NCBI GenBank assembly: GCA_947169975.1
Contig: CAMVRT010000010.1
Coordinates: forward strand, 1-64,000
DNA: 64,000 bases
Source of the DNA: an uncultured Oscillospiraceae bacterium
Lineage (GTDB): Bacteria > Bacillota > Clostridia > Oscillospirales > Oscillospiraceae
Direction: 5' to 3'
Shown: one piece after another, positions 13,962-54,145 of the stretch
Numbering within the stretch: the stretch's first letter is position 1
Layout: every line of letters starts with the position of its first letter
Position numbers and translations under genes: made by a program
The notes under the pieces: model-generated
The model's input: the letters and a program-made list of their open reading frames with translations, nothing else
Told to the model about the DNA's origin: nothing
The model's database searches: none

Positions 13962-14828
13962 TCAGATCATCATCTCACAGCGCATACTCATGACCGCGCT
14001 GCCGCCTATGCGGATCAGTACTTGATCCCCATTCTCTGTCAGGCGGCTGCGGATCTCCGACGGACGGCCCATATGCTCGCCCTGGAGAAACACGTTTTCG
14101 TGTCCCGGTTTCACTATGCCGCGGCGATAGAGATAATAGGTCAGTGCACCGTTGGAGGTGCCGGTGGCGCACTCCTCCGGAATGTCATAGAGCGGCGCGA
14201 AATTGCTGCAATATGCCGTACACGTCTCGTCGCCGGGGCAGAACATGTGCACGCCCACGCAGTCATACCGGCGGCTCAATTCGGTCACGGCGTGTTCATT
14301 CTGCACGGCGGCCATCAGCTGCTCATGATCACGCACCGGCAGCATAATGTCCGCCAGACCGGTGGAGATGATCTCCGGGGCAAAGCCATCCGGCGCAGCC
14401 TCCGGTGAGAGGCCGAAAGCGCGGTATAGCTCCTCCGCCTCCCCTGCCTCCAATCTCCGCAGCAGCTTCGGGGGCGCCATATCCATCCACACCGTATCGC
14501 CCTCCACGTCGATCCGCAGATCACCAGAACGGGTGCGGGCTGTGTGGCTGCCGTCTCCGATCATGTTCTGCGAGCGCAGCAACGCAAAGGCGGCAATGGT
14601 GGCGTGACCGCAAAGGTCAACTTCTCCAGCCGGTGTAAAGTATTTTATCCTGACAGTCTTGTTATCCTCCGGTGTAACAAAGGCAGTCTCGGAATGTTTG
14701 AATTCCGCAGCGATCTGCTGCATGAGTTCATCCGACAGCGGTCGGTCCGGCAGGACCACACCCGCCTGGTTTCCGCCGAAAACGCGGGATGAAAAAGCAT
14801 CCATTACAAAGGCACGCACAAAGATCAC
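13962..14828 (-). CDS. PhzF-family isomerase/epimerase
   Basis: 288-residue PhzF-fold protein. The family includes isomerases acting on small acidic metabolites; most bacterial members have no known substrate. Visible are the conserved N-terminal NQAGVVL segment, the catalytic glutamate in FKHSETAFV, the GHATIAAFA motif and CATGTSNGAL in the second half-domain. The start is GTG, 6 bases after an AAGGA site; an ATG nine codons in is less likely. It stands alone between two terminators. Confidence 0.88.
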   Translation of the reverse strand: MIFVRAFVMDAFSSRVFGGNQAGVVLPDRPLSDELMQQIAAEFKHSETAFVTPEDNKTVRIKYFTPAGEVDLCGHATIAAFALLRSQNMIGDGSHTARTRSGDLRIDVEGDTVWMDMAPPKLLRRLEAGEAEELYRAFGLSPEAAPDGFAPEIISTGLADIMLPVRDHEQLMAAVQNEHAVTELSRRYDCVGVHMFCPGDETCTAYCSNFAPLYDIPEECATGTSNGALTYYLYRRGIVKPGHENVFLQGEHMGRPSEIRSRLTENGDQVLIRIGGSAVMSMRCEMMI

Positions 14829-14895
14829 ATCCTTTCCTTCTTCACATTATAAAGCCGCGACGGACAGACGGCAACATCTTTCTGCAAATGCGCGC

Positions 14896-14929
14896 AAAAA
14901 ATCACCTGCCTTGCGGCAGGTGATTTTTT
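14896..14929 (-). terminator. Terminator of the CoA-transferase operon
   Basis: 15-base-pair stem AAAAAATCACCTGCC / GGCAGGTGATTTTTT with a four-base loop and a six-T run on the minus strand, 12 bases after the stop of the beta subunit. Confidence 0.92.
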
Positions 14930-14941
14930 GTTTACCATCAA

Positions 14942-15610
14942 TCAGTCGATCATGCTCTTCAGGTTCTCGGCGACGGTGATGGGGGCAGCGGTAGCGGCCT
15001 TCACCTGATCGACAGTGAACTCGGGGTTGATCTCGGTCATCACCAGGCCGTTCTCGGTGACTTCCAGAACGCACATCTCGGTGATGATCTTCTTGACGCA
15101 GTGGGAAGCGGTCAGAGGCAGACGGCACTTCTCAAAGATCTTGGGATTGCCCTTGGCGGTGTGCTCCATGCAGACGATGCAGTTGCGGGCACCGACGCAC
15201 AGATCCATAGCGCCGCCCATGCCGGGCATCTTCTTGCCGGGGATGATCCAGTTGGCCAGGTTGCCCTCCTGGTCGACCTCCAGGGCGCCCAGGAAGCAGG
15301 CGTCCACATGGCCGCCGCGGATCAGGCCGAAGTTGCTGGCGGAATCGATGAAGCCGCCGCCGTAGGCCACGGAGGAGGGAGAACCACCGGCGTCAACAAC
15401 ATGATAGGGATCATAGTTGGCGTCGCCCTCCTTGGGGGAGGTACCGGCGGAGACGATGCCCAGCTCGGCATGGATGATCAGCTCAACGCCCTCGGGCAGA
15501 TATGCAGGAATCAGAGTGGGCAGGCCGATACCCAGGTTGACGACGTCGCCATTCTTCAGCTCTTTGGCGCAGCGCTTGGCAATAAAGGCCTTGATTTCAG
15601 ACTTCTCCAT
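14942..15610 (-). CDS. atoA: Acyl-CoA:acetoacetate CoA-transferase, beta subunit
   Basis: 222-residue class I CoA-transferase subunit. In lysine fermentation the pair moves CoA from butyryl-CoA to acetoacetate (or acetate), releasing butyrate. GIGLPT (27-32) and the GMGGAMDLCVGA segment are as in the family. The catalytic glutamate is expected in an (S)ENG motif; here the equivalent region reads IIHAELGIVSAG (E49), so the Glu is kept but its surroundings differ. Its ATG overlaps the alpha-subunit stop (TAATG), implying coupled 1:1 translation. The substrate assignment follows from the adjacent kam operon. Confidence 0.9.
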   Translation of the reverse strand: MEKSEIKAFIAKRCAKELKNGDVVNLGIGLPTLIPAYLPEGVELIIHAELGIVSAGTSPKEGDANYDPYHVVDAGGSPSSVAYGGGFIDSASNFGLIRGGHVDACFLGALEVDQEGNLANWIIPGKKMPGMGGAMDLCVGARNCIVCMEHTAKGNPKIFEKCRLPLTASHCVKKIITEMCVLEVTENGLVMTEINPEFTVDQVKAATAAPITVAENLKSMID

Positions 15611-16302
15611 TACATTTTCTCTCCTTCCACGATGTAGTCAACGCACATGCCGTAGGTATGGACGTTCTCGGGCTCGATCTCGCCCACGGGGACAATATAC
15701 TCGCACTCGGCGATAACGGTGTCAGCTGCGGTGGCCATCACGGTATTAAAGTTACGCATGGTGCCCTTGTACCAGCAGTTGCCGAACTCGTCGCACTTAT
15801 AGGTGCCCAGCAGAGCAAAGTCGGCGTGGATGGGAGCCATCTCCAGATACTCCTTGCCGTCGATGGTGCGCTTGCCGCGGCAGAAGGGGCTATCCTCGAT
15901 CATGGTATCAACGCCCACGGGGGTGAGCACGCCGCCCAGACCGGCGCCGTCGGCGCGGATGCACTCAGCCAGAGTGCCCTGGGGCAGCAGGTTGACTTCC
16001 AGCGTACCCTCGGTGTTCTGCTGGCCGACCTCGGGAGTCATGCCCACGTGAGTGGCGATGACGCGCTTGACCTGATGATTGTGAATCAGCTCGGCGATGC
16101 CGAAGAACTCCTCGCCCTTGGGGCCAACAGCGCGGCCGCAATCGTTGGCGATCAGGGTCAGGTCCTTGGTGCCCAGCTTGACAAGCTCCTTGACGATGGC
16201 ACGGGCCTGGCCGCAGGCCAGGAAGCCACCGAACATGACGGTAGCGCCATCAGGGATCATTTTCGCTGCCTCAGCGGCAGTGAGCACAGGTTTCTTTGCC
16301 AT
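15610..16302 (-). CDS. atoD: Acyl-CoA:acetoacetate CoA-transferase, alpha subunit
   Basis: 230-residue alpha subunit of the class I CoA-transferase, starting MAKKPVLTAAEAAKMIPDG with the glycine-rich VMFGGFLACG loop and the TPVGVDTMIED segment. It is transcribed from its own promoter in the gap after kamE and forms a two-gene unit with the beta subunit. It is longer and more diverged than E. coli AtoD, in line with the butyryl-CoA:acetoacetate enzymes of amino-acid fermenters. Confidence 0.9.
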   Translation of the reverse strand: MAKKPVLTAAEAAKMIPDGATVMFGGFLACGQARAIVKELVKLGTKDLTLIANDCGRAVGPKGEEFFGIAELIHNHQVKRVIATHVGMTPEVGQQNTEGTLEVNLLPQGTLAECIRADGAGLGGVLTPVGVDTMIEDSPFCRGKRTIDGKEYLEMAPIHADFALLGTYKCDEFGNCWYKGTMRNFNTVMATAADTVIAECEYIVPVGEIEPENVHTYGMCVDYIVEGEKM

Positions 16303-16373
16303 TTGGTGTTCCTCCTTGTTGTTTTCGAACTTAAAATGCGCGGGGTTAGAATTGCCAAGAAATTAACAGTGTC

Positions 16374-16402
16374 ATCATAGCACCATCTTGCAGAAAATGC
16401 AA
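16374..16402 (-). promoter_or_regulatory. Promoter of the CoA-transferase operon
   Basis: Minus-strand TTGCAT (16402-16397), 17-base spacer and TATGAT (16379-16374), about 70 bases before the alpha-subunit start. It allows expression separately from the riboswitch-controlled kam operon. Confidence 0.7.
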
Positions 16403-16465
16403 GGGGGTGAAGCCTCTTCTTTTCTCTTTTCTTAAAAAGAAGCGGCAGTTTTTGCGCTCCGCAGG

Positions 16466-16498
16466 CCGGACGGTCATGAGCATGTCATGACCGTCCGG
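16466..16498 (-). terminator. Hairpin after kamE
   Basis: Perfect 14-base-pair stem CCGGACGGTCATGA / TCATGACCGTCCGG with a GCATG loop, 14 bases past the kamE stop. There is no T tract, so it may stabilise the mRNA 3' end rather than terminate. Confidence 0.55.
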
Positions 16499-16512
16499 TG
16501 TGCGGGATATGC

Positions 16513-17301
16513 TTATTTCATGCCGCGCTTGACCATTTCCGTGACCACAAAGCTGGCCACGTCGTCACCGTAGGTACCGGAACCGAAGCCGGCGTCGTAG
16601 CCCAGCTCCTTAGCCAGCTCATGGGTGATACGGGGGCCGCCGCAGACCACCACGAACTTGTCGCGCAGGCCTTCGGCCTCCAGCAGCTCGATAAGGTTGG
16701 TCAGGTTCTGGATGTGGATATCCTTCTGGGTGACCGTCTGGGACACCAGCAGGGCGTCGGCGTGCAGCTCCACGGCCTTCTTGATGAACTCCTCGTTGGG
16801 CACCTGGGAGCCCAGGTTGTAGGCCTCCACCATCTCGTAGCGCTCCACGCCGTAGTGACCGGCGAAGCCCTTACGGTTCATGATGGCGTCAATGCCCACG
16901 GTGTGGGCGTCGGTGCCGGTAGAGGCGCCCACCATCACGACCTTGCGGCCAATGTGCTCGCGGATGTAGTCGTTGGTCTCCTCCATGCTCATCACGTCGG
17001 ACTCGACAGTAATAACGTGGATGTCCTCGTAGTTGACAGTATGGACGCAGCTGCCGTAGACCACGTAGAAGGTGAACTCCTTGTCCAGCGGGGCGTGATA
17101 GGCTACGTTGGGCTCCTCCAGGCCCATCTTCTTGGCGATCTGCCGGGCGGCTTCCTCGCCGCGGGCGTCGTCCTTGACGGGAAGGGTGAAGCTGGTCTGC
17201 ACCTTGCCGTCGTTCATGGTGTCGCCGTAGGGTTTCAGGCGGGTCAGATCCAGCGTGGTGTCGAAATCGATCTTATGGGTGTTATACAGTCCGCTGCTCA
17301 T
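16513..17301 (-). CDS. kamE: Lysine 5,6-aminomutase, beta subunit
   Basis: 262-residue small subunit that binds adenosylcobalamin and PLP and moves the terminal amino group of beta-lysine (or D-lysine) to carbon 5. The B12 motif DAHTVG (D131-x-H133-x-x-G136) and the PLP lysine K144 in NRKGFAGHYG are both present, at the positions known from the Acetoanaerobium enzyme. The Rossmann B12 domain fills the C-terminal half. Its ATG overlaps the kamD stop by four bases. It is the last gene of the lysine operon. Confidence 0.97.
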   Translation of the reverse strand: MSSGLYNTHKIDFDTTLDLTRLKPYGDTMNDGKVQTSFTLPVKDDARGEEAARQIAKKMGLEEPNVAYHAPLDKEFTFYVVYGSCVHTVNYEDIHVITVESDVMSMEETNDYIREHIGRKVVMVGASTGTDAHTVGIDAIMNRKGFAGHYGVERYEMVEAYNLGSQVPNEEFIKKAVELHADALLVSQTVTQKDIHIQNLTNLIELLEAEGLRDKFVVVCGGPRITHELAKELGYDAGFGSGTYGDDVASFVVTEMVKRGMK

Positions 17302-18860
17302 TCTGCTGCCACCTTACCTTTCATCACTTCGATAAACGGGTTGAAGTGCTTTTCGTCCTTCACCACGACGCCGTTAAGGCCCTTGCCGCCGTCCTTGGGA
17401 CGCTTGACGTCGGCGAAGATACCCTTCTCGATGGTGGTGAACAGGCCCAGCTTCTCGATCTCCTTCAGGAGCTCGGTGGCCTTTGTCAGTACCTCGTTGG
17501 CGCGGTTGCGGATGATGCCGTTCTCCTTGTAAGTCAGCTCGCTGCCCAGATCCTTCATGGTGCGGAAGATGTACTGGGCGTTCTCGATGGACAGGGCGCG
17601 GTCGGACATGAACGGGGTGTGAATCGCCTCGGTCATCATGCCCAGCAGATGCAGCTTCTGGCCGGTCAGAATGGTGACCATGTTGAACAGCGCATCCTGG
17701 ATGTGGCCGCGGAAGATGTTGCCGGTCATAAACTTGGTGGGCGGCATGTACTTCAGCGGAGCCTTGGGGAAGATCTCGCGGGCCATCTGCGCCTGGGCCA
17801 GCTCATAGAGGAAGGTGTTTTCCACAGAGGGATCCATCTCAAAGGCATGGCCGAGGCCCATCTGCTCTTCGCGCATGCCGGCGGTCTTGGCAAAGGCCTC
17901 GTTCAGGAACTGGGAGGCCAGCACGGTATGGGCGGAGGTAATGGCGTCGTCGGTGGTCAGATAGTTGTCCTCACCGGTGTTGATGATGACGCCGGTGTAG
18001 CCGTTGATGACGCGGGAGAAGTACTGGTCCACGATGGTGCGCTGCATGTTGATGTCGCGGAACAGGATGCCGTACAGAGCGTCGTTCAGCATGACGTCCA
18101 GACGCTCCAGAGCGCCCATGGCGGCGATCTCGGGCATGCACAATCCGGAACAGTAGTTGCACAGCCGGATGTAGCGGTGCTGCTCCTCGCCTACTTCGTC
18201 CAGAGCGGCGCGCATCAGGCGGAAGTTCTCCTGGGTGGCGTAGGTACCGCCGAAGCCCTCGGTGGTGGCGCCATAGGGCACGTAGTCCAGCAGGGACTGA
18301 CCGGTGGTGCGGATCACAGCGATGATGTCGGCGCCCTGCTTGGCGCCGGCCTTGGCCTGGATAATATCCTCGTAGATATTACCGGTGGCCACGATGATGT
18401 ACAGGTAGGGGCCCTGCTTGTCGCCGAAGCGTCCCAGATACTCGTTGCGCTTGGCGACGTTCTTGTTGATGCGCTGGATGGTGGCGTCAACATAGGGCTT
18501 GATGGCAGCGCGGATCTCGCTGTCGCTGTGGGCGGGCAGCTTGGTCAGATCCAGCTCGCCGCTGTCGATGGCCTCCGCCACGCCCTGGGGATCCTTACCG
18601 GTCTCCAGAATGGCGTTGCCGATCACCCAGGCGGCGCCCAGGGGCAGCAGGGAGTTTTCCATCAGGTTGTCCACCACCACGTTGGGCATGGGAACGTCCA
18701 TCTCGTTGACGCCGTCGATTCCCAGAAGGCGGCAGATGGCACGCTCCACCGTGACGGTGGTGTGCTGGTCGATAAAGCGCTGGACGTCAGCTGCCACATG
18801 GGCGGCGGAGGTCCGGGCCTCGTTGACCAGTTCAAAATTCAGGCCGAGTTTGCTTTCCAT
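17298..18860 (-). CDS. kamD: Lysine 5,6-aminomutase, alpha subunit
   Basis: 520-residue large subunit with the TIM-barrel that holds substrate, PLP phosphate and the adenosyl group. It starts MESKLGLNFELVNEART and is full length for the family, with typical LGHAFEMDPSVENTFLYE and PPTKFMTGNIFRGH segments. ATGA overlap with kamE indicates coupled translation. A GC hairpin in the 104-base gap separates it from kamA. Confidence 0.96.
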   Translation of the reverse strand: MESKLGLNFELVNEARTSAAHVAADVQRFIDQHTTVTVERAICRLLGIDGVNEMDVPMPNVVVDNLMENSLLPLGAAWVIGNAILETGKDPQGVAEAIDSGELDLTKLPAHSDSEIRAAIKPYVDATIQRINKNVAKRNEYLGRFGDKQGPYLYIIVATGNIYEDIIQAKAGAKQGADIIAVIRTTGQSLLDYVPYGATTEGFGGTYATQENFRLMRAALDEVGEEQHRYIRLCNYCSGLCMPEIAAMGALERLDVMLNDALYGILFRDINMQRTIVDQYFSRVINGYTGVIINTGEDNYLTTDDAITSAHTVLASQFLNEAFAKTAGMREEQMGLGHAFEMDPSVENTFLYELAQAQMAREIFPKAPLKYMPPTKFMTGNIFRGHIQDALFNMVTILTGQKLHLLGMMTEAIHTPFMSDRALSIENAQYIFRTMKDLGSELTYKENGIIRNRANEVLTKATELLKEIEKLGLFTTIEKGIFADVKRPKDGGKGLNGVVVKDEKHFNPFIEVMKGKVAAE

Positions 18861-18923
18861 AGATGATACCTCTTCAGCTCACTTGATTCCGTTTGACGGG
18901 TGGAGCACAGGGAAAACGGCGTT

Positions 18924-18951
18924 GCCGAACGGGGCGTTTGCCCCGTTCGGC
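18924..18951 (-). other. Intercistronic hairpin between kamA and kamD
   Basis: Perfect 12-base-pair stem GCCGAACGGGGC / GCCCCGTTCGGC with a four-base loop and no U tract. It lies between two cistrons of one operon and could set relative mRNA stability or partial termination. Confidence 0.6.
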
Positions 18952-18964
18952 GGCTGCCGGTCTC

Positions 18965-20215
18965 TTAGTGCTTGACGTGGCGCTCGTTGCGCAGCAGCTT
19001 GGTGGGCTCCAGATAGCGCTGAGGCGTACCCTCGGCGACCCAGGCCACACCGGTCTTCTCCGCCTTCTTCTTGCCGGTGCAGACGTCGCAGTGGCAGTTC
19101 TGGACGTAGTGCTCGGGTTCGGTGTAGGAGGTGATGACGCCCTCGAAGTTGCGCAGGATGACCTTACGCGGCGTCTGGGAGATCAGGTAGTTGGGCATGA
19201 CAGGGGTCTTGCCGCCGCCGCCGGGAGCGTCCACCACGAAGGTGGGGATGCAGTAGCCGGAGGTATGGCCGCGGAGGGCCTCCATGATCTCGATGCCCTT
19301 GGACACGGGGGTGCGGAAGTGGCTCAAGCCCAGGGAAGGATCGCAGGCGTAGATGTAGTAGGGACGCACGCGCATCTTCACGAGGCCGTGGACCAGCTCC
19401 ATCATCACGTGGCTGCAGTCGTTGACGCCGGCCAGCAGCACGGACTGGTTGCCCAGGGGGATACCGGCGTCAGCCAGCATGGCGCAGGCCTTGGCGGCTT
19501 CCGGAGTGAACTCCTTGGGGGTGTTGAAGTGGGTGTTCAGCCAGATGGGGTGATACTTGCGCAGCATGTTGCACAGCTCGGGAGTGATACGCTGGGGGCA
19601 CACCACGGGGGTGCGGGAGCCCAGACGGACGATCTCCACGTGGGGGATGGCGCGGACCTTCTTGATGATGTACTCCAGGGTCTCATCGGAGACCATCAGC
19701 GCGTCACCGCCGGAGAGCAGCACGTCGCGGACCTCGGGGTGGTTGGCCACGTACTCGATGCACTTGTCGATCTGGGCCATGGGGACCTCGCAGTCATTCT
19801 GGCCGGCAAAACGGCGACGGGTGCAGTGACGGCAGTACATGGAGCACTGGTCGGTGATGAGCAGCAGCACGCGGTCGGGATAGCGGTGGGTCAGGCCGGG
19901 GGTGGGAGAGTCGGTATCCTCGTGCAGAGGATCGGCGTCCTCATAATCGGCATACTCCAGCTCCTCAGCGCGGGGAATGGCCATCTTGCGGATGGGATCA
20001 AAGGGATCGTCCAGATCGATCAGGGACAGGTAGTAGGGCGTAACAGCCATACGCAGCTTGCCCAGAGTCTTGCGGACGCCCTCTTCCTCGTCGGGGGTCA
20101 GGGTCATGTACTTCTTCAGATCCTCAACCGTCTCGGCGCGGTTGGCGACCTGCCAATGCCAGTCATTCCACAGATTCTCGGGAACGTCGGCGAACAGACC
20201 GTTGCGAGTTTTCAT
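18965..20215 (-). CDS. kamA: Lysine 2,3-aminomutase
   Basis: 416-residue radical-SAM, PLP enzyme that turns L-lysine into L-beta-lysine, the first step of the pathway. The [4Fe-4S] cysteines are C124, C128 and C131 (CSMYCRHC), the PLP lysine is K336 in PGGGGKTPVMPN, and the C-terminal CHCDVC cluster matches the structural zinc site. Length and residues fit the clostridial enzyme. AGGAGG lies upstream of the ATG. It follows kdd in the riboswitch-controlled operon. Confidence 0.97.
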   Translation of the reverse strand: MKTRNGLFADVPENLWNDWHWQVANRAETVEDLKKYMTLTPDEEEGVRKTLGKLRMAVTPYYLSLIDLDDPFDPIRKMAIPRAEELEYADYEDADPLHEDTDSPTPGLTHRYPDRVLLLITDQCSMYCRHCTRRRFAGQNDCEVPMAQIDKCIEYVANHPEVRDVLLSGGDALMVSDETLEYIIKKVRAIPHVEIVRLGSRTPVVCPQRITPELCNMLRKYHPIWLNTHFNTPKEFTPEAAKACAMLADAGIPLGNQSVLLAGVNDCSHVMMELVHGLVKMRVRPYYIYACDPSLGLSHFRTPVSKGIEIMEALRGHTSGYCIPTFVVDAPGGGGKTPVMPNYLISQTPRKVILRNFEGVITSYTEPEHYVQNCHCDVCTGKKKAEKTGVAWVAEGTPQRYLEPTKLLRNERHVKH

Positions 20216-20257
20216 TTTTTCTTTCCTCCTATTATTCAGGCATTGAGAAAACCGCGG

Positions 20258-20285
20258 GAGCAGGGAGGGATCCTCCTCCCTGCTC
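20258..20285 (-). other. Intercistronic hairpin between kdd and kamA
   Basis: Perfect 11-base-pair stem GAGCAGGGAGG / CCTCCCTGCTC with a six-base loop and no U tract. Same kind of element as the one after kamA. Confidence 0.6.
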
Positions 20286-20299
20286 TCGCCGGGAACCGT

Positions 20300-21352
20300 T
20301 TAGCAGTACTTCTCGTCGAACAGCTTGCGCAGCTTGGGATTCTCACGCAGCACGTTCAGGGTGATCTCGGCGTGGTTCTTGGTGTAGCCGTTGCCCACGA
20401 TCATGGTGACGTCCTTGCCGACACCCTCGGCGCCCAGAGCGGCCTTGGTGAAGGAGGTAGCCATGGAGAAGAAGTACACCAGGCCGTCGTCACGGACGGG
20501 CAGGATGGCGGACATCTCGCAGGATTCGATGTTCACGCAGCAGATGGAGATATCATACTCCTTGCCGCCGTTGGCAGCCAGAGCAGCGTCCAGCACCTCA
20601 ACGGGCTTGGTGCAGTCGGCCACGATAACGTCGGTGTAAACGCCCAGCTCCATCAGCGCAGGAACCTGCTTGGGGTTGCGGACAACGCCCACGACCTTGC
20701 CGTTGGGGCCAACCTTCTTCAGAGCTTCCCAGCCGCACAGAACGCCGGACTTGCCGTTGGCGCCGAGGATCAGAACGCTGTCGCCCTCCTTGGGCAGCTT
20801 GCGGGCCTGAGCGGGAGCGCCGGCCACATCCAGAGCAGCCAGAGCCAGAGGCTCGGACATGTCGTCGGGCAGCTTGGCGTACAGGGCGGTCTCAAACAGA
20901 ACGGCCTGGCCGTCGATATCCACGCGGTCGATATCCTTGTGGATGGCCTTGATACGGTCGATGCGCAGCGGGGTCATGGACAGGGAGACCAGGGAGGCGA
21001 TCTTGTCGCCCACCTTCAGATTGAAGTCGGGCTTGGCCAGCAGGTCCTCGCCGATGTAGGCGACCTTGCCGATGAACATGCCGCCGGAACCGGTGACGGG
21101 GTTCTGCTGCTTGCCGCGCTCAGCCACGATGCCCATGATCATTTCGCCGATCTTCTTCTCGTCGCCGCCGCAGGCCTCGGAGATCTGGGTGAAGGAGGCG
21201 GAGTCAACGTTCAGGGAGATGACGTCGCAGATGATCTCGTTGGAGTAACGCTTGGTCATGTCGTTGTCCAGCTTCCACGCGGCCTGGGTCAGAACACCCT
21301 TGGGCTCGATGACGCGGTGAGTACCGTACTTGTTGCCTTTCAGCTGTGCCAT
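20300..21352 (-). CDS. kdd: L-erythro-3,5-diaminohexanoate dehydrogenase
   Basis: 350-residue NAD-dependent enzyme that oxidatively deaminates 3,5-diaminohexanoate to 5-amino-3-oxohexanoate. It has the family opening MAQLKGNKYGTHRVIEPKG and a Rossmann-like fold with the nucleotide-binding stretch VLILGANGKSGVLCG. Length is as expected. It lies between kce and kamA, the product and substrate steps of the same pathway, and has AGGAGG before the ATG. Confidence 0.95.
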   Translation of the reverse strand: MAQLKGNKYGTHRVIEPKGVLTQAAWKLDNDMTKRYSNEIICDVISLNVDSASFTQISEACGGDEKKIGEMIMGIVAERGKQQNPVTGSGGMFIGKVAYIGEDLLAKPDFNLKVGDKIASLVSLSMTPLRIDRIKAIHKDIDRVDIDGQAVLFETALYAKLPDDMSEPLALAALDVAGAPAQARKLPKEGDSVLILGANGKSGVLCGWEALKKVGPNGKVVGVVRNPKQVPALMELGVYTDVIVADCTKPVEVLDAALAANGGKEYDISICCVNIESCEMSAILPVRDDGLVYFFSMATSFTKAALGAEGVGKDVTMIVGNGYTKNHAEITLNVLRENPKLRKLFDEKYC

Positions 21353-21415
21353 AATATTATCCTCCTAAAAATGTATTTTGTTAGGTTGTTACGCTTATGG
21401 ATTTGAATTTTCCGC

Positions 21416-22243
21416 TCAGTTCAGGGGCTTCAGGCCCAGGATCTCGCGGGCCTCAGCGGGAGTGGCGATCTCGCGGCCCAGCTCCTTGGCCAGGCGCACC
21501 ACCTTGGCCACCAGTTCGCCGTTGGAGGCGGCCTTGTGGCCCTTGCCCAGGTACACGTTGTCCTCAAAGCCCACGCGGACGTTGCCGCCCATGACGATGC
21601 CGGCGGCGGCCATGGCCCAGGCGCTGCGGCCCACACCGGTAACGGTCCAGGTGGAGCCGGCGGGGATCTTGCTCACCAGGAAGGCCAGATTATCTACAGT
21701 GGCGGGGGTGCAGCCGGCCACGCCCAGCACGAAGTTGAACTGCATGGGAGCGCCGGGGACCTCGCCCTTCTTCGCCATGTTCAGCACGGTGTCCAGGTGG
21801 CCGATCTCGAAGCACTCATACTCGGGCTTGATGTTGTTCTCGATCATGCGCTTGCCGAAGGCCCGCATGGTGGGCATGGTGTTCTCAAACACGTCGTCGC
21901 CGAAGTTGCAGGTGCCGCAGTCCAGCGTGGCCATCTCGGGCATCAGCTCGGTGGGCTGCAGACGCTCCTCCGGGGTCATGCCGGTGGCGCCGCCGGTGGA
22001 GGGGATCATAATGACGTCGGGCAGTTCCTTGCGGATGGCATCCATCACCACGCGGAAACGCTCGCGGTCCTGGGTGGGGGTGCCGTCGTCCTCGCGGACG
22101 TGGACGTGGATGATGGCGGCGCCGGCTTCATAGGCGGATTTGGCCTCGCGGACCATCTCCTCAACGGTGTAGGGAACAGCGGGATTGTTGGCCTTGGTGA
22201 CCTCTGCGCCGCAGATGGCGGCGGTAATAATCAGCTTCTCCAT
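21416..22243 (-). CDS. kce: 3-keto-5-aminohexanoate cleavage enzyme
   Basis: 275-residue BKACE-family TIM barrel that condenses 5-amino-3-oxohexanoate with acetyl-CoA to give acetoacetate and 3-aminobutyryl-CoA. Zinc ligands H46 and H48 (IIHVHVRE) and the late GFEDNVYLGKGH segment are visible. The start is placed at MEKLIITAAICGAEV, with GAGAGG upstream; a 16-codon upstream extension overlaps kal and is rejected. It starts 13 bases after kal. Confidence 0.95.
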   Translation of the reverse strand: MEKLIITAAICGAEVTKANNPAVPYTVEEMVREAKSAYEAGAAIIHVHVREDDGTPTQDRERFRVVMDAIRKELPDVIMIPSTGGATGMTPEERLQPTELMPEMATLDCGTCNFGDDVFENTMPTMRAFGKRMIENNIKPEYECFEIGHLDTVLNMAKKGEVPGAPMQFNFVLGVAGCTPATVDNLAFLVSKIPAGSTWTVTGVGRSAWAMAAAGIVMGGNVRVGFEDNVYLGKGHKAASNGELVAKVVRLAKELGREIATPAEAREILGLKPLN

Positions 22244-22256
22244 TGCAATTCCTCTC

Positions 22257-22694
22257 TTACTTCTCCTCGCGGCGGATAGCGCCCTTGACAATGTCGGGGC
22301 CGCGCTTGATGCGCTGGCAGTCCTTGGGCGTCACGCAGGTACCGTGAGCGCGGCAGACCACAATGGGCTCGGGCAGCACGTCGGCGGCGGAGGCGCTGAT
22401 GTCGGGACGGGAGACGATGACCTTGCGGGCCTCGAACTTCATGGTGCGGGAGGTGTTGCCGATCTTCTCGATCTCGCCGTAAGCCTCAATGTAGTCGCCG
22501 GCGTAGACCGGAGCCAGGAACTCAATGTTGTCATAGGCGCAGAACAGGCCCTCGTCACCGTCACACTGAATCAGCAGTTCGGTAGCCACGTCGCCGAACA
22601 GGTGCACCATGTGGGCGCCGTCCACCAGGTTTCCGCCGTAGTGGGCGTCCTTGGCGCTCATACGCAGCCGGAGCAGGGATGTCATCTTTTCCAT
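22257..22694 (-). CDS. kal: 3-aminobutyryl-CoA ammonia-lyase
   Basis: 145-residue hotdog-fold enzyme that removes ammonia from 3-aminobutyryl-CoA to give crotonyl-CoA, the entry point to the butyrate branch. The sequence has the family's [19 protein letters not shown] active-site region and a typical length. It is the first gene of the lysine operon, about 90 bases after the riboswitch terminator, with GGAGG before the ATG. Confidence 0.94.
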
Positions 22695-22786
22695 GAGAAT
22701 ATTCCTCCTTCACAAATTTTCGCTTTGTTATTGGGACTTGTCGCAGTCTTCCGGGGAGAAGTCCAGCCGCAGCGCTTCTTTCGGGC

Positions 22787-22828
22787 AAAAAAAGGGCGCT
22801 ATCGGTCAAGGTCGTTGACCAATAGCGC
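22787..22828 (-). terminator. Riboswitch-controlled terminator before kal
   Basis: Minus-strand 14-base-pair stem (22828-22815 with 22809-22796, one G-U pair), five-base loop, then CC and seven T. Its 5' arm contains the entire 3' strand of the aptamer P1 helix (22825-22818), so P1 and the terminator exclude each other. Confidence 0.9.
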
Positions 22829-22990
22829 TCCATGCTGCAAGAACATGACAGTAACACCGCTTACACGGCGCTACCAAGGCAGAAGACAGGGCCGTTCTTC
22901 ATCCTTTCGGCGGAAAGCCCCTTCCCTGTCTGACGTAACCGGTTGCCCTCCCGGTCAGACAGGTACCCTGCTCTCCGCGCCTCTATTGAC
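22818..22990 (-). ncRNA. Lysine riboswitch (L-box), predicted ON switch
   Basis: The leader of the lysine-fermentation operon has the L-box signatures in order: AGAGGCGC (22984-22977), AAGGGGCTTTCCGCCGAA (22923-22906), CTGTCAT (22851-22845) and the closing TGGAGCGCTAT. P1 is formed by GTCAATAG (22990-22983) and CTATTGGT (22825-22818), eight pairs including two G-U. The motifs resemble the lysC leaders of Bacillus. Unlike those, the P1 3' strand is part of the terminator 5' arm, so lysine binding should prevent termination. The family call is firm; the direction is inferred from the pairing. Confidence 0.9.
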
Positions 22991-23014
22991 TGCTCTATGG
23001 AATTCTGCGATAAA

Positions 23015-23043
23015 ATTATATCCATTTCCCGTCATTTTGTCAA
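23015..23043 (-). promoter_or_regulatory. Consensus sigma-A promoter of the kal-kce-kdd-kamADE operon
   Basis: Perfect TTGACA (23043-23038), 17-base spacer and perfect TATAAT (23020-23015) on the minus strand, about 25 bases before the first P1 base of the lysine riboswitch. A full-consensus promoter implies that control is mainly at the riboswitch. Confidence 0.92.
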
Positions 23044-23088
23044 GAAAAAAGCGGCGATATCGTCGGGAATTTTTCTCCCTTGCACAGT

Positions 23089-24549
23089 TCAATAAGCCTG
23101 TTCGATCCGCTCCAGAATCTCCGGCTTCAGCGACAGCATCCGGCAGATGTTGAGGGCGTCGCGGGGACAGTCGGACTTCCCCTCCACCCGGTAGAGGCCG
23201 TAGTTCATATGGCGGGCAATGACGGCCACGCCGTCCTCTTTGGTAGCGGCCAGCTCACAGCGGATCTGTTCCGGGTCCACGTCCCGCAATCCGATGATCT
23301 GATAGTGGATATTGGCAAATTCCGCCACCTTGTCGTAGTGGGTGGTCAGCAGCGACATGGCGTTCACGTCGTTCAGATAGCGGGTCACGGCCTGCACGAT
23401 GACGGCGCCCTCGTCGGGGTTGGTGCCCCGGGCGAACTCGTCCAGCAGGAACAGAGAATAGCCCTGCTCCACCTCGTCCAGCGCCTTCTGGAACTCCACG
23501 ATCTCCGAGCCGAAGCCGCTGAGGCCGGACTGGATGGACTGCAGATCGTCAAATAGCATCTTCACACTGTGGAAAAGAGGCATCCTCGCCCGTTTGGCGC
23601 ACACGAGAAATCCCGCGTGGAACAGCAAAGCGTTGAGAGCCACCGTTTTCATGGCCACGCTCTTGCCGCCCATGTTGGCGCCGGTGATCACCGTGGCGCC
23701 GCGGTCGAGCGCAATGGAAACGGGTACAAACCTGCGCCCCTTCTCCTCCAGCAGATCCACCAACTCCGGGTTTATCATGTCCTCCAGCTCCAGTGCCGTG
23801 TCCGTCAGCTCCGGGCGAACGCCGCCATAGCGCACGGCGAAAAGAGCCTTCTGGATGAGAAAATCCAGCCGTCCGGCGGTGTCGGCGTCGGCGAGCAGAT
23901 CCGGCACCATGGGGGCAAGGGCTGCGCCCATGGCACGGCGGACCTTCATCTCCTCGCTCTCCTCCTCGGCGCAGATCCGGGTGCGCTTCATGCGCAGGTC
24001 GTCCTTTTCCGCGTCGGTCTGAGCGTGATAGAGCTGCTCCTCGATCTGCTTCTTTGCCTGACGGATCTCCCACAGCTTCTGTGTGGCGCCGTCCGGGATA
24101 TAGAAGCCCCGGGACCGGGTATTCTCCGGATCCAAGATGCGCAGCGCGAGGGTGGGATCGTGGAAGGCAACGCCCTCCAGGTGTACCTCCTCATCCATTT
24201 GGGCCAGCAGAGGGATCAGACTTTCCAGCCGCTGGAGATAGCCCTTGATCTCGAAAAGCTCCACATGATCAGGCACTTCCCCTTCGGCGCAGCGGCGCAG
24301 AGAGTTGCGGATGTCCTTCATCTGGCACAGCACGATCATGATCTTGTCGTACACGTCCTTCAGCTGCTCCGCGGCAGCGGCGGCGCGCTCTACGTTGCCC
24401 AGCTCCGTTTCCAGCTCCTCACGTTGGGCTGGGGTGTAGAACCGCAGATGGCGGATGCGCTCCTGCCCGAAGGGGCTGCAGCCGTGGAGACTCTCCAGCA
24501 CATACTGCAGACCGATTTTCACTTTATCGTCAAAGCTGACGGTGATCAT
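23089..24549 (-). CDS. kamC: Lysine 5,6-aminomutase reactivase ATPase, MutS-like
   Basis: 486-residue MutS-family ATPase without a mismatch-binding domain. It has the Walker A segment GANMGGKSVAMKT, an LSGFGSEIVEF signature stretch, Walker B LFLLDEFARGTNP and the TTHYD switch His, so the ATPase core looks intact. MutS-like proteins encoded with kam genes are annotated as KamC, thought to reactivate the B12-dependent aminomutase together with KamB. Its ATG overlaps the kamB stop (ATGA). It lies directly upstream of the riboswitch operon on the same strand. Without that context it would be called only a MutS-like protein. Confidence 0.85.
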   Translation of the reverse strand: MITVSFDDKVKIGLQYVLESLHGCSPFGQERIRHLRFYTPAQREELETELGNVERAAAAAEQLKDVYDKIMIVLCQMKDIRNSLRRCAEGEVPDHVELFEIKGYLQRLESLIPLLAQMDEEVHLEGVAFHDPTLALRILDPENTRSRGFYIPDGATQKLWEIRQAKKQIEEQLYHAQTDAEKDDLRMKRTRICAEEESEEMKVRRAMGAALAPMVPDLLADADTAGRLDFLIQKALFAVRYGGVRPELTDTALELEDMINPELVDLLEEKGRRFVPVSIALDRGATVITGANMGGKSVAMKTVALNALLFHAGFLVCAKRARMPLFHSVKMLFDDLQSIQSGLSGFGSEIVEFQKALDEVEQGYSLFLLDEFARGTNPDEGAVIVQAVTRYLNDVNAMSLLTTHYDKVAEFANIHYQIIGLRDVDPEQIRCELAATKEDGVAVIARHMNYGLYRVEGKSDCPRDALNICRMLSLKPEILERIEQAY

Positions 24550-25478
24550 GCCAGTTCCTCCTTTACGTTGATGACCGGGGCGTCGATGGCCTCCGACATG
24601 GCGCGCATAAAGGCGTCCTTGTCGAATCGCCAGCCGTAGGCCGACACAGGGTTGATGGTGACGCACAGCGTCCTGGCGGCCTCCACCGTCTCCAGCGCTA
24701 CTTGCCGGGTGGCCAGCTTATCCAGCGTATCGGTGCTCAAAAGCACCTTGCTGGGATCCTTCACCACCAGCCGTCCCTTCCGCAGCAATCCGTTGCGCAG
24801 CAGGGGCACCACCATGGAGTCGGTCAGTGCGCCGCCCACGATGGCCTCGCCGTTCTTCTTGAGAGCGTCGGCCAGGGTTCCCTCCACCTCCTCCGGCAGC
24901 GTCTCCGCCTTGGGGATGTTCATGATGCGGTAGATGTTCACCGTGTCCGCCACCACCTTCTCCATGCTCATGTGGTAGCTGGCTCCGGTGCAGAGGATCA
25001 CGCCCTCCGCCACGGCCCGGGCGCCCAGTGACTTGCGGCCCAAGGCGCCGTCTATGATGGATTGATCCGCCCCCAGCTCAAAGAAGTGTTGGGAAACAGT
25101 TTTCAGCTGTGTGGTGATGGACGGTCCCGCCAGCTGCACGTAGCCGTCGCTCCGGGCCCGGACAATGACCACCTCGCCCACGGGGGTAGGGATGCCGGTT
25201 GTCATCAGCACCTCCAGGGTAATGTCGCCCAGCCGCAGCATGTCCTTGGCGGTGGCGATCAGCGTACCAGCCGGGACGAAGATGCTGGGCTTTTCCGTGC
25301 CGGTGACCACGTCGGTGGACTCGCCGTCCCGCCCGATGGAGGTCAGGCCCAGCACACGCTCCCGGCCGCTGTGGTGCAGCAGCCAGTTGAGCACGGTGGT
25401 CTTTCCGGCGTTCTTGCACATGCCCACGATGGACATGGTTTTCACGCTGTGCAGTTGTTCCAGCAGCTCCCTTTGCAT
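24546..25478 (-). CDS. kamB: Lysine 5,6-aminomutase reactivase subunit
   Basis: 310-residue P-loop protein with GMCKNAGKTT near the N-terminus (about 19-28). It is found next to kamC in lysine-fermentation clusters and is assumed to act with KamC in restoring inactivated lysine 5,6-aminomutase. The start is MQRELLEQLHS, with AAAGGAG upstream; a 28-codon in-frame extension is rejected. The promoter of kamB-kamC is not clear: a TTGACA at about 25560 has no -10 at good spacing. Confidence 0.82.
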   Translation of the reverse strand: MQRELLEQLHSVKTMSIVGMCKNAGKTTVLNWLLHHSGRERVLGLTSIGRDGESTDVVTGTEKPSIFVPAGTLIATAKDMLRLGDITLEVLMTTGIPTPVGEVVIVRARSDGYVQLAGPSITTQLKTVSQHFFELGADQSIIDGALGRKSLGARAVAEGVILCTGASYHMSMEKVVADTVNIYRIMNIPKAETLPEEVEGTLADALKKNGEAIVGGALTDSMVVPLLRNGLLRKGRLVVKDPSKVLLSTDTLDKLATRQVALETVEAARTLCVTINPVSAYGWRFDKDAFMRAMSEAIDAPVINVKEELA

Positions 25479-25606
25479 GGCGCGGCTCCTTTCGGCGGGA
25501 TGTACTTTCAACTGATAATGATACCATAGATACGCGGAAAAGAAAAGAGGGTGTTTTGTCAAAACGGACAGTCGGGGACGCCGGCCCCGTTTACCACCGG
25601 GACATT

Positions 25607-25646
25607 ACGGATTGCCGCGTCGGGCTGCTGCCCTCCTCGCAATGAC
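25607..25646 (-). repeat. Dispersed REP-like palindromic repeat, copy 1
   Basis: Reads, on the minus strand, TCATTGCGAGGAGGGC, a short loop and CGACGCGGCAATCCGT. Two more copies with the same ends lie at 55443-55478 and 55493-55528. Elements with GTCATTGCGAG / GGCAATCCGT ends are dispersed in related genomes. It lies in the 260-base gap upstream of kamB, beside a small GC hairpin at 25574-25588. Confidence 0.7.
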
Positions 25647-25666
25647 AGAACGCCCCCAAAGTGAAA

Positions 25667-25701
25667 GGGTGGATGCAACGCGAAATCCGTTGCATCCACC
25701 C
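25667..25701 (-). terminator. Terminator after glmS and its downstream gene
   Basis: Perfect 14-base-pair stem GGGTGGATGCAACG / CGTTGCATCCACCC with a seven-base loop, followed on the minus strand by TTTCACTTT. Confidence 0.75.
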
Positions 25702-25738
25702 GGCCGTATCAGACGAGCTTCTCAAAAAACGCTTACTT

Positions 25739-26269
25739 TCAAATGGAGACGATGTAAAATCTCAGTTCTTCATCCCCGCAGTTCAGGGTTGCCGACTCTG
25801 TCACAGGGATCTTTTTCCCGTGCTCATCCAGAACGGTTGCCGTACTGCAGAGGCTTACGGTATTTGCCTCACCGTCAACGGTAATCTCCAGATCAAAGCT
25901 GCAGACGTTCCACCAGTTGTATTGATAGGCAACGATCTCTATCGGTTTTTCGATTCCATTCACATGAAGCTGCATGGTATATGGGCCATACTCACCGGCA
26001 TGAATGGAGATTTTTGTCCCGTTCTGGCCGGGACGGGCGCTGACAGCGGTGTCCTTGGCGTCATAGAGACACGTGATATCGCTTTTCCCGATCTCACGGG
26101 ATTCACCGTCTACCGTCAGATGGATCGTGCCGGTGATCCGGTCCCACGGATAAAGGATTCGATAATAGACCGGCTTCAAAAAGAGAAACACGCATACGCC
26201 CAGCAGGAGAATGACAGCAAGGATCAGCCCCGTCGTTTTGGCAATCTTCGCGGATTTAACTGTTTTCAT
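25739..26269 (-). CDS. Single-pass membrane protein, unknown function
   Basis: 176 residues. A basic N-terminus is followed by one transmembrane helix (about 12-32) and an extracytoplasmic, beta-rich domain with two related segments, TGTIHLTVDGESREIG and FDLEITVDGEANTVSL, which suggests an internal duplication. GGAGG lies 7 bases before the ATG. It starts 24 bases after glmS on the same strand, so it is probably co-transcribed with it and hence under the same ribozyme. I recognise no family. Confidence 0.75.
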   Translation of the reverse strand: MKTVKSAKIAKTTGLILAVILLLGVCVFLFLKPVYYRILYPWDRITGTIHLTVDGESREIGKSDITCLYDAKDTAVSARPGQNGTKISIHAGEYGPYTMQLHVNGIEKPIEIVAYQYNWWNVCSFDLEITVDGEANTVSLCSTATVLDEHGKKIPVTESATLNCGDEELRFYIVSI

Positions 26270-26293
26270 ACGTGTACCTCCGATAAGGCCTTT

Positions 26294-28129
<1,836 letters not shown>

Positions 28130-28184
28130 AAACTTGATCCTCCTGATAATGAAAAAAGGTATCAAAAGGACAAACTCGCAGCTA

Positions 28185-28340
28185 TTTGCCTTTCTATCCG
28201 GTCGCAGCCTCTCTGTTCTGCGGTCGCCCGCATATTTGTCAGCTGCGTCACATGCCCGGAACGGCACGGGAGAGCTTCCGCCGAAAATTTCGATACTCTC
28301 TCCTCCTCGTCGTCCTGCTCACAACAGGCACTGGCGCTTC
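28185..28340 (-). ncRNA. glmS ribozyme
   Basis: The glmS leader contains the self-cleaving ribozyme's conserved core: GCGCCAG just 3' of the expected cleavage site (between 28338 and 28337), CGACGAGGA, ATCGAAATTTTCGGCGGA and CTCCCG, then the GGGCATGTGACG region. These match the Bacillus leader closely. Glucosamine-6-phosphate acts as cofactor for cleavage, which lowers glmS mRNA. The 3' boundary is approximate. It accounts for most of the 314-base gap before glmS. Confidence 0.88.
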
Positions 28341-28443
28341 ATGACAGGATGGTTCCTGTGATCCTCCTTTTCTCTTCTGCGAATGGTATTTATAATAATG
28401 CGCTGTCTGCGCATACTACCCCATAAAAAGGGGGTATTTTGTC

Positions 28444-54015: not shown

Positions 54016-54050
54016 ACCACCTTGCAGCGAAGCTGCGGCAAATTGAATAC

Positions 54051-54145
54051 CTTATCAAGAGTGGTTGAGGGACCGGCCCGATGACACCACGACAACCTGC
54101 GAAAGCAAGGTGCCAAATCCGGCGAACGAATCGAAAGATGAGGGT
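54051..54145 (+). ncRNA. SAM-I riboswitch (S-box)
   Basis: Contains the S-box core in order: CTTATCAAGAG, GGTTGAGGGACCGGCCCGATGA, CAACC, GGTGCCAAATCC and the closing AGATGAGGG. SAM binding would stabilise the anti-antiterminator and allow the terminator that follows, repressing metK when SAM is abundant. Confidence 0.96.

Follow-up and report, generated by a model that had tools for sequence, protein, structure and literature searches.

A lysine riboswitch with a predicted ON layout ahead of the lysine-fermentation genes of an uncultured Oscillospiraceae bacterium

How would a lysine riboswitch respond to its ligand when the genes behind it consume lysine? The question is raised by a leader on the minus strand of a 64,000-nucleotide stretch of DNA from an uncultured Oscillospiraceae bacterium (GCA_947169975.1, contig CAMVRT010000010.1), here termed the window. 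A first-pass annotation proposed that this leader is an ON switch, in which lysine induces its own catabolism, the opposite of the repressing lysC-type switches. We examined the leader and its genes, and compared the arrangement across L-boxes from many other genomes.

Architecture of the leader and its genes

The aptamer had been called a recognisable L-box, and a covariance-model search bears this out. The match to RF00168 (22993-22815, minus strand) scores 94.6 bits over the full model (1-182 of 182) against a gathering cut-off of 30 (E 9.8e-24), and is the sole L-box detected by this search in the organism's own 2.16 Mb assembly. The P1 closing element and the internal stems of the five-helix junction align, with six bases flagged as non-standard pairs. 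Sequence alone cannot give specificity, and the ligand might be a relative of lysine within the pathway, such as beta-lysine or 3,5-diaminohexanoate, compounds on which the downstream genes act. The replacement of the model-preferred U by C at two weakly conserved core positions (AGAGGCGC and GAGCGC) would suit such a ligand. However, the score lies 64 bits over the lysine-family cut-off, and we regard a ligand other than lysine as extremely improbable.

P1 is formed by 22990-22983 paired with 22818-22825: eight pairs, two of them G-U. The Rfam alignment marks the inner six (5′ strand 22988-22983), to which two further G-U pairs are added outward. The P1 3′ strand (22825-22818) is common to the 5′ arm of an intrinsic terminator hairpin (22796-22828, minus strand; −22.8 kcal/mol). 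Here 22828-22815 pairs with 22796-22809 (14 pairs, one G-U) around a loop of five bases (22814-22810), and CC separates the stem from a T7 tract (22787-22793); a separate hairpin scan agrees. Eight of the 14 bases of the 5′ arm belong to P1, three (22828-22826) to the aptamer core and three (22817-22815) lie beyond P1. The first-pass annotation had placed the P1 3′ strand wholly within this arm, and its coordinates are confirmed to the base. Because the arm takes up the P1 3′ strand in full and three bases of the core, P1 and the terminator are mutually exclusive, which is the layout of an ON switch.

The leader terminator is distinguished by its strength and position, not by the number of such sites in the region: 10 terminator-like sites occur in 14000-26500 against a shuffle mean of 9.2, a count not above shuffles. 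When the letters of 22817-22794 were shuffled with the aptamer end fixed, none of 5000 shuffles matched the −22.8 kcal/mol hairpin (mean −8.0, best −21.7). It is the one terminator that the hairpin scan called in the leader, with none between 22787 and kal; the only other leader hairpin listed (22876-22849) lies within the aptamer. Upstream, a sigma-A type promoter (23015-23043, minus strand) has TTGACA (23043-23038), a 17-base spacer and TATAAT (23020-23015), matching 12 of 12 consensus positions as previously claimed. No other site in 14000-26500 reaches 12/12; promoter-like sites there total six against a shuffle mean of 3.2, and the L-box begins about 20 bases downstream of this promoter on the minus strand. 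An AGGAGG at 22704-22709 (minus strand), nine bases before the ATG at 22694, is the likely kal ribosome binding site.

The genes that follow, all on the minus strand, are indeed those of lysine fermentation. Kal, 3-aminobutyryl-CoA ammonia lyase (22257-22694), matches NF052388 at 192.8 bits (cut-off 160); Kce, the 3-keto-5-aminohexanoate cleavage enzyme (21416-22243, with the start MEKLIIT picked by eye), matches NF052387 at 424.7 bits (cut-off 382); and Kdd, L-erythro-3,5-diaminohexanoate dehydrogenase (20300-21352), matches NF052381 at 257 bits (cut-off 200). They are followed by KamA, lysine 2,3-aminomutase (18965-20215; TIGR03820, 595.2 bits, cut-off 525.4), and by the alpha and beta subunits of lysine 5,6-aminomutase, KamD (17298-18860; NF052384, 912.7 bits, cut-off 600) and KamE (16513-17301; NF052385, 409.2 bits, cut-off 280). 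The 3,5-diaminohexanoate pathway set is thus complete, six of six proteins exceeding NCBIfam equivalog cut-offs. Beyond kamE, the run extends into CoA-transferase subunits A (15610-16302; TIGR02429, 184.3 bits, cut-off 128.5) and B (14942-15610; TIGR02428, 270.5 bits, cut-off 243.55); gene position suggests a role in the lysine pathway for subunit A. The reactivase genes of lysine 5,6-aminomutase lie upstream of the riboswitch on the same strand: kamB (24546-25562; NF052386, 310.2 bits, cut-off 210) and kamC, encoding the ATPase (23089-24666, true start probably later; NF052383, 504.6 bits, cut-off 300), which because of this location is not behind the riboswitch.

Several other features were recorded around this locus. 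A 14-pair terminator-like hairpin (25701-25667, minus strand) sits between a gene at 25739-26269 and kamB. A glmS ribozyme (RF00234, 78.4 bits, 28193-28349, minus strand) precedes a gene that by eye is glmS-like (26294-28267), and a SAM-I riboswitch (RF00162, 76.6 bits) lies at 54049-54144 on the plus strand. A scan with Kdd found no relative in viral contigs, and a distant search of phages gave no match. Among the best 80 loci listed, the closest named Kal proteins (97-98%) come from MAGs with the title Ruminococcaceae bacterium or Oscillospiraceae bacterium; the source of one was goat abomasum.

We consider it highly probable that the leader is a transcriptional lysine-ON riboswitch. RNA polymerase would initiate at the strong promoter (23043-23015). 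Lysine bound by the L-box before synthesis of the hairpin's 3′ half would close P1 and hold the terminator 5′ arm; the polymerase would then read through into kal-kce-kdd-kamA-kamDE and the CoA-transferase genes, presumably as a single transcript. With lysine absent, or arriving too late, P1 would be displaced by the 3′ arm of the terminator, which is similar to the P1 5′ strand, and transcription would stop at the T7 tract. A folding model puts the finished terminator state at −97.2 and the P1 state at −79.7, making the terminator 17.5 kcal/mol more stable. Since this equilibrium model favours the terminator, lysine, if it acts, would have to act during transcription and could win only kinetically. 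Before the terminator 3′ arm exists, modelled P1 is less stable than the best fold without ligand by about 1 kcal/mol, and from the completion of P1 (22820) to the point at which the terminator draws level (22806-22804) there are 14-16 bases, in a model that omits RNA held inside the polymerase. Lysine would presumably bind within this interval and, by a kinetic decision, beat the terminator.

P1/terminator overlap across genomes

RF00168 was searched in 99 genomes, the window's own included, and matched at 83 places in 69 of them. Lysine-fermentation genes follow 26 of these places, 25 in the window's genus (32 genomes) and one, that of G053, in a different genus of the same family. Behind the remaining 57, the first genes, named by eye from their first residues, form clusters resembling asd, dapA, ABC-transporter binding proteins, a membrane protein and others. 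Within the genus itself there are 29 L-boxes, 25 before kal and four before other genes (in G006, G028 and twice in G012). More widely, Kal occurs in 64 of 299 phylum genomes; 34 of the 63 besides the window's have any L-box, and by coordinate comparison a same-strand L-box lies shortly before kal only in G128 and G170, with G351 having one 3.8 kb ahead. From the 67 L-boxes of the phylum set 20 were taken, not at random: three near kal, four others of the same genomes and 13 mostly lower-scoring ones.

Named genomes were added by searching for L-boxes in the genomes of the best 80 kal loci listed. A first batch of 37 genomes had L-boxes in 21, a second batch of 43 (to judge by titles, largely Bacteroidales) in none. 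The gain was 10 further catabolic L-boxes and 14 others, four of 28 rows being dropped because they duplicated places already covered (G029, G022, G003, G010). An L-box was counted as ‘other’ when no kal, kce, kdd or kamA match lay in the downstream DNA examined (at most 1.5 kb for some of the L-boxes). The catabolic set is not a random sample, since a single genus supplies 25 of its 39 members and the kal search led to 13. Their 37 Kal proteins form nine clusters at 85% identity, or seven once G005 and G015, genes truncated at contig ends, are set aside; with G053, where kce comes first, and G432, where kamA does, the set represents about nine lineages.

One rule was applied to all 127 L-boxes, and overlap was scored if the best terminator took up four or more of the inner six bases of the P1 3′ strand. 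The rule gave a terminator call in all 39 catabolic L-boxes and in 83 of the 88 others. Overlap was found in 38 of the 39 catabolic L-boxes versus three of the 83 others (Fisher 7e-27, not a true probability because the sequences are related), a contrast that lends support to the proposed ON wiring as predicted from sequence. The five others without a terminator comprise G064 and G355, whose contigs end 44 and 0 bases after the aptamer, and the uncalled G090, G094 and G428a. In the three genomes that offer internal controls (G128, G170, G351), the L-box ahead of kal overlaps and the four other L-boxes do not.

The sole catabolic exception, G053 (L081, G053:C11:27048-27225), has a P1-overlapping hairpin before kce (−26.1) and a stronger one (−29.9) starting 55 bases after the aptamer. 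Two of the three overlapping others, G092 and G047, have weak-tailed hairpins, each with a separate non-overlapping candidate. The third, G430c (L241, G430:C61:11236-11411), is an ON-type L-box; no open frame of at least 100 aa starting within 900 bases was printed on its strand. Another ON-type L-box, L122 (G351:C22:15224-15403), is followed first by a frame of 487 aa that by eye resembles a sigma-54 type activator, and its gene order matches the pspF3-kal-kce reported for Thermoanaerobacter in passages of PMC5584792. The L-box match of L221 (G419:C52:40263-40518) spans 256 bases; because this far exceeds the others listed, it probably contains an insertion in one arm.

The terminator rule was made strict after a first view of the data, and the contrast holds under loose and strict rules alike. 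In the first loose scan, any overlapping hairpin was present in 26 of 26 catabolic versus six of 57 other L-boxes, and overlap in the strongest hairpin in 25 of 26 versus four of 57. Later sets scanned in the same way gave 3/3 versus 1/17 and 10/10 versus 2/14. Overlapping hairpins before non-catabolic genes were inspected by eye, covering eight of the first-set cases with an overlap of three or more bases together with G430a and G430c. Most looked like antiterminators with a separate terminator downstream, and the stricter tail rule was therefore written.

Could the leader nevertheless be an ordinary lysine-OFF attenuator, in which lysine promotes termination and the substrate represses its operon? 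There is precedent for this arrangement: passages of PMC11477304 describe the L-boxes of biosynthesis genes in B. subtilis and E. coli as OFF switches, the natural L-box used in PMC10974012 represses according to its available text, and 76 of the 83 other L-boxes that have a terminator call show no P1 overlap. But in these other L-boxes the called terminator starts a median of 27 bases past the aptamer, whereas that of the window begins 13 bases ahead of the point where the Rfam aptamer match ends. As the window terminator requires the P1 3′ strand, a ligand-stabilised P1 should oppose termination. A lysine-OFF switch was rejected on the ground that the sole leader terminator starts inside the aptamer and uses the P1 3′ strand, and we judge it very improbable.

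Across the catabolic set (32 distinct rows of 39), pairing with both partners is seen for the six inner bases of the P1 3′ strand in 32, 32, 22, 31, 28 and 26 rows, respectively. Both pairings are kept in G351 and G053 though the outer letters differ from those of the window; under the window pairing, P1 is poor in G170, with two inner pairs, and short, with four, in both G128 and G423. This record bears on whether the aptamer might be idle, the L-box no longer sensing lysine and the hairpin merely ending an upstream kamBC transcript. Such a role would fit the end of kamC just upstream on the same strand (23089), and the scan of 14000-26500 listed no promoter-like site ahead of kamB. Against it stand the 94.6 bits across the full model, the 12/12 promoter between kamC and the aptamer, and the retention of both pairings, largely intact, over the 32 distinct rows; an idle aptamer is thus hardly credible to us, and a lysine-ON switch is retained.

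Lysine supply and a possible role for the switch

The organism's own genome (97% complete) gave no match to lysA, dapA or dapF, genes that the same searches matched in 13, 14 and 9 of 14 control genomes, respectively. Of the 32 genomes in the genus, 16 match lysA (12 of them over the cut-off) and 8 match dapA (two over the cut-off), so the loss does not extend to the genus as a whole; G008, listed as a 100% complete genome in two contigs, matched neither. The window's genome also encodes a MurE with a DNPR motif, which we take to mark the diaminopimelate-adding type and which speaks against simple loss of the whole lysine pathway. The organism is likely a lysine auxotroph, although this is not settled, and it may thus be an auxotroph that ferments lysine.

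Speculatively, an auxotroph would be well served by an ON gate that holds back lysine breakdown until the amino acid is abundant. In a genus often without detected lysine biosynthesis genes, where 25 of the 29 L-boxes in 32 genomes precede kal, it is possible, though we hold the idea only tentatively, that the riboswitch left biosynthesis and was kept mainly as a high-threshold kinetic ON gate. Lysine would then be burned only above growth need, protecting an amino acid that the cell may not make. The gathered L-boxes offer a set of natural lysine-ON candidates of uniform layout, with OFF-type L-boxes of the same genomes as controls, and would also allow a direct test of the same aptamer rewired by placement of the terminator on P1.

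Relation to known riboswitches

The adenine ON riboswitch of B. subtilis pbuE (ydhL) places its P1 3′ strand in the terminator 5′ arm and is under kinetic control; its layout is like that of the window leader, while aptamer, ligand and genes differ. The lysC-type L-boxes share the aptamer family (RF00168) and, as described in passages of PMC11477304, are OFF switches, in line with what the first-pass annotation had said of them. Its hunch that an association of L-boxes with lysine catabolism might already have been noted was also right, as passages of PMC5584792 and PMC2258182 state it. Barrick & Breaker 2007 (PMC2258182), in the passages available, describe ON logic in certain riboswitches for glycine, adenine and lysine, which bury pieces of the terminator stem on metabolite binding, citing Rodionov 2003. 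This is the same mechanism as in the window leader; those passages describe no lysine ON locus.

Mukherjee, Barash & Sengupta 2017 (PMC5584792), as excerpted, report L-boxes before kal/kce with positive regulation of catabolic genes, citing Serganov & Patel 2009. Their examples are Clostridium sticklandii kal-kce, Fusobacterium nucleatum kal, and Thermoanaerobacter tengcongensis and T. wiegelii pspF3-kal-kce, like the window in having an L-box before kal/kce but in other organisms. The word ‘terminator’ occurs 0 times in the text, and its passages give no P1/terminator overlap. Lysine-activated devices were obtained by selection from a repressing natural switch, according to passages of PMC10974012. 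The lysine-2,3-aminomutase gene of Dehalobacter, which lies behind Na+ and c-di-AMP riboswitches in the account excerpted from PMC9337991, is a different system from the window L-box. In the portions of the open-licence literature consulted, no experiment proving a natural lysine-ON switch was found. Both the ON mechanism and the gene association had been predicted for other bacteria, and the window is a clear new example, not a new mechanism. What is new here is the overlap contrast across many genomes, with in-genome controls.
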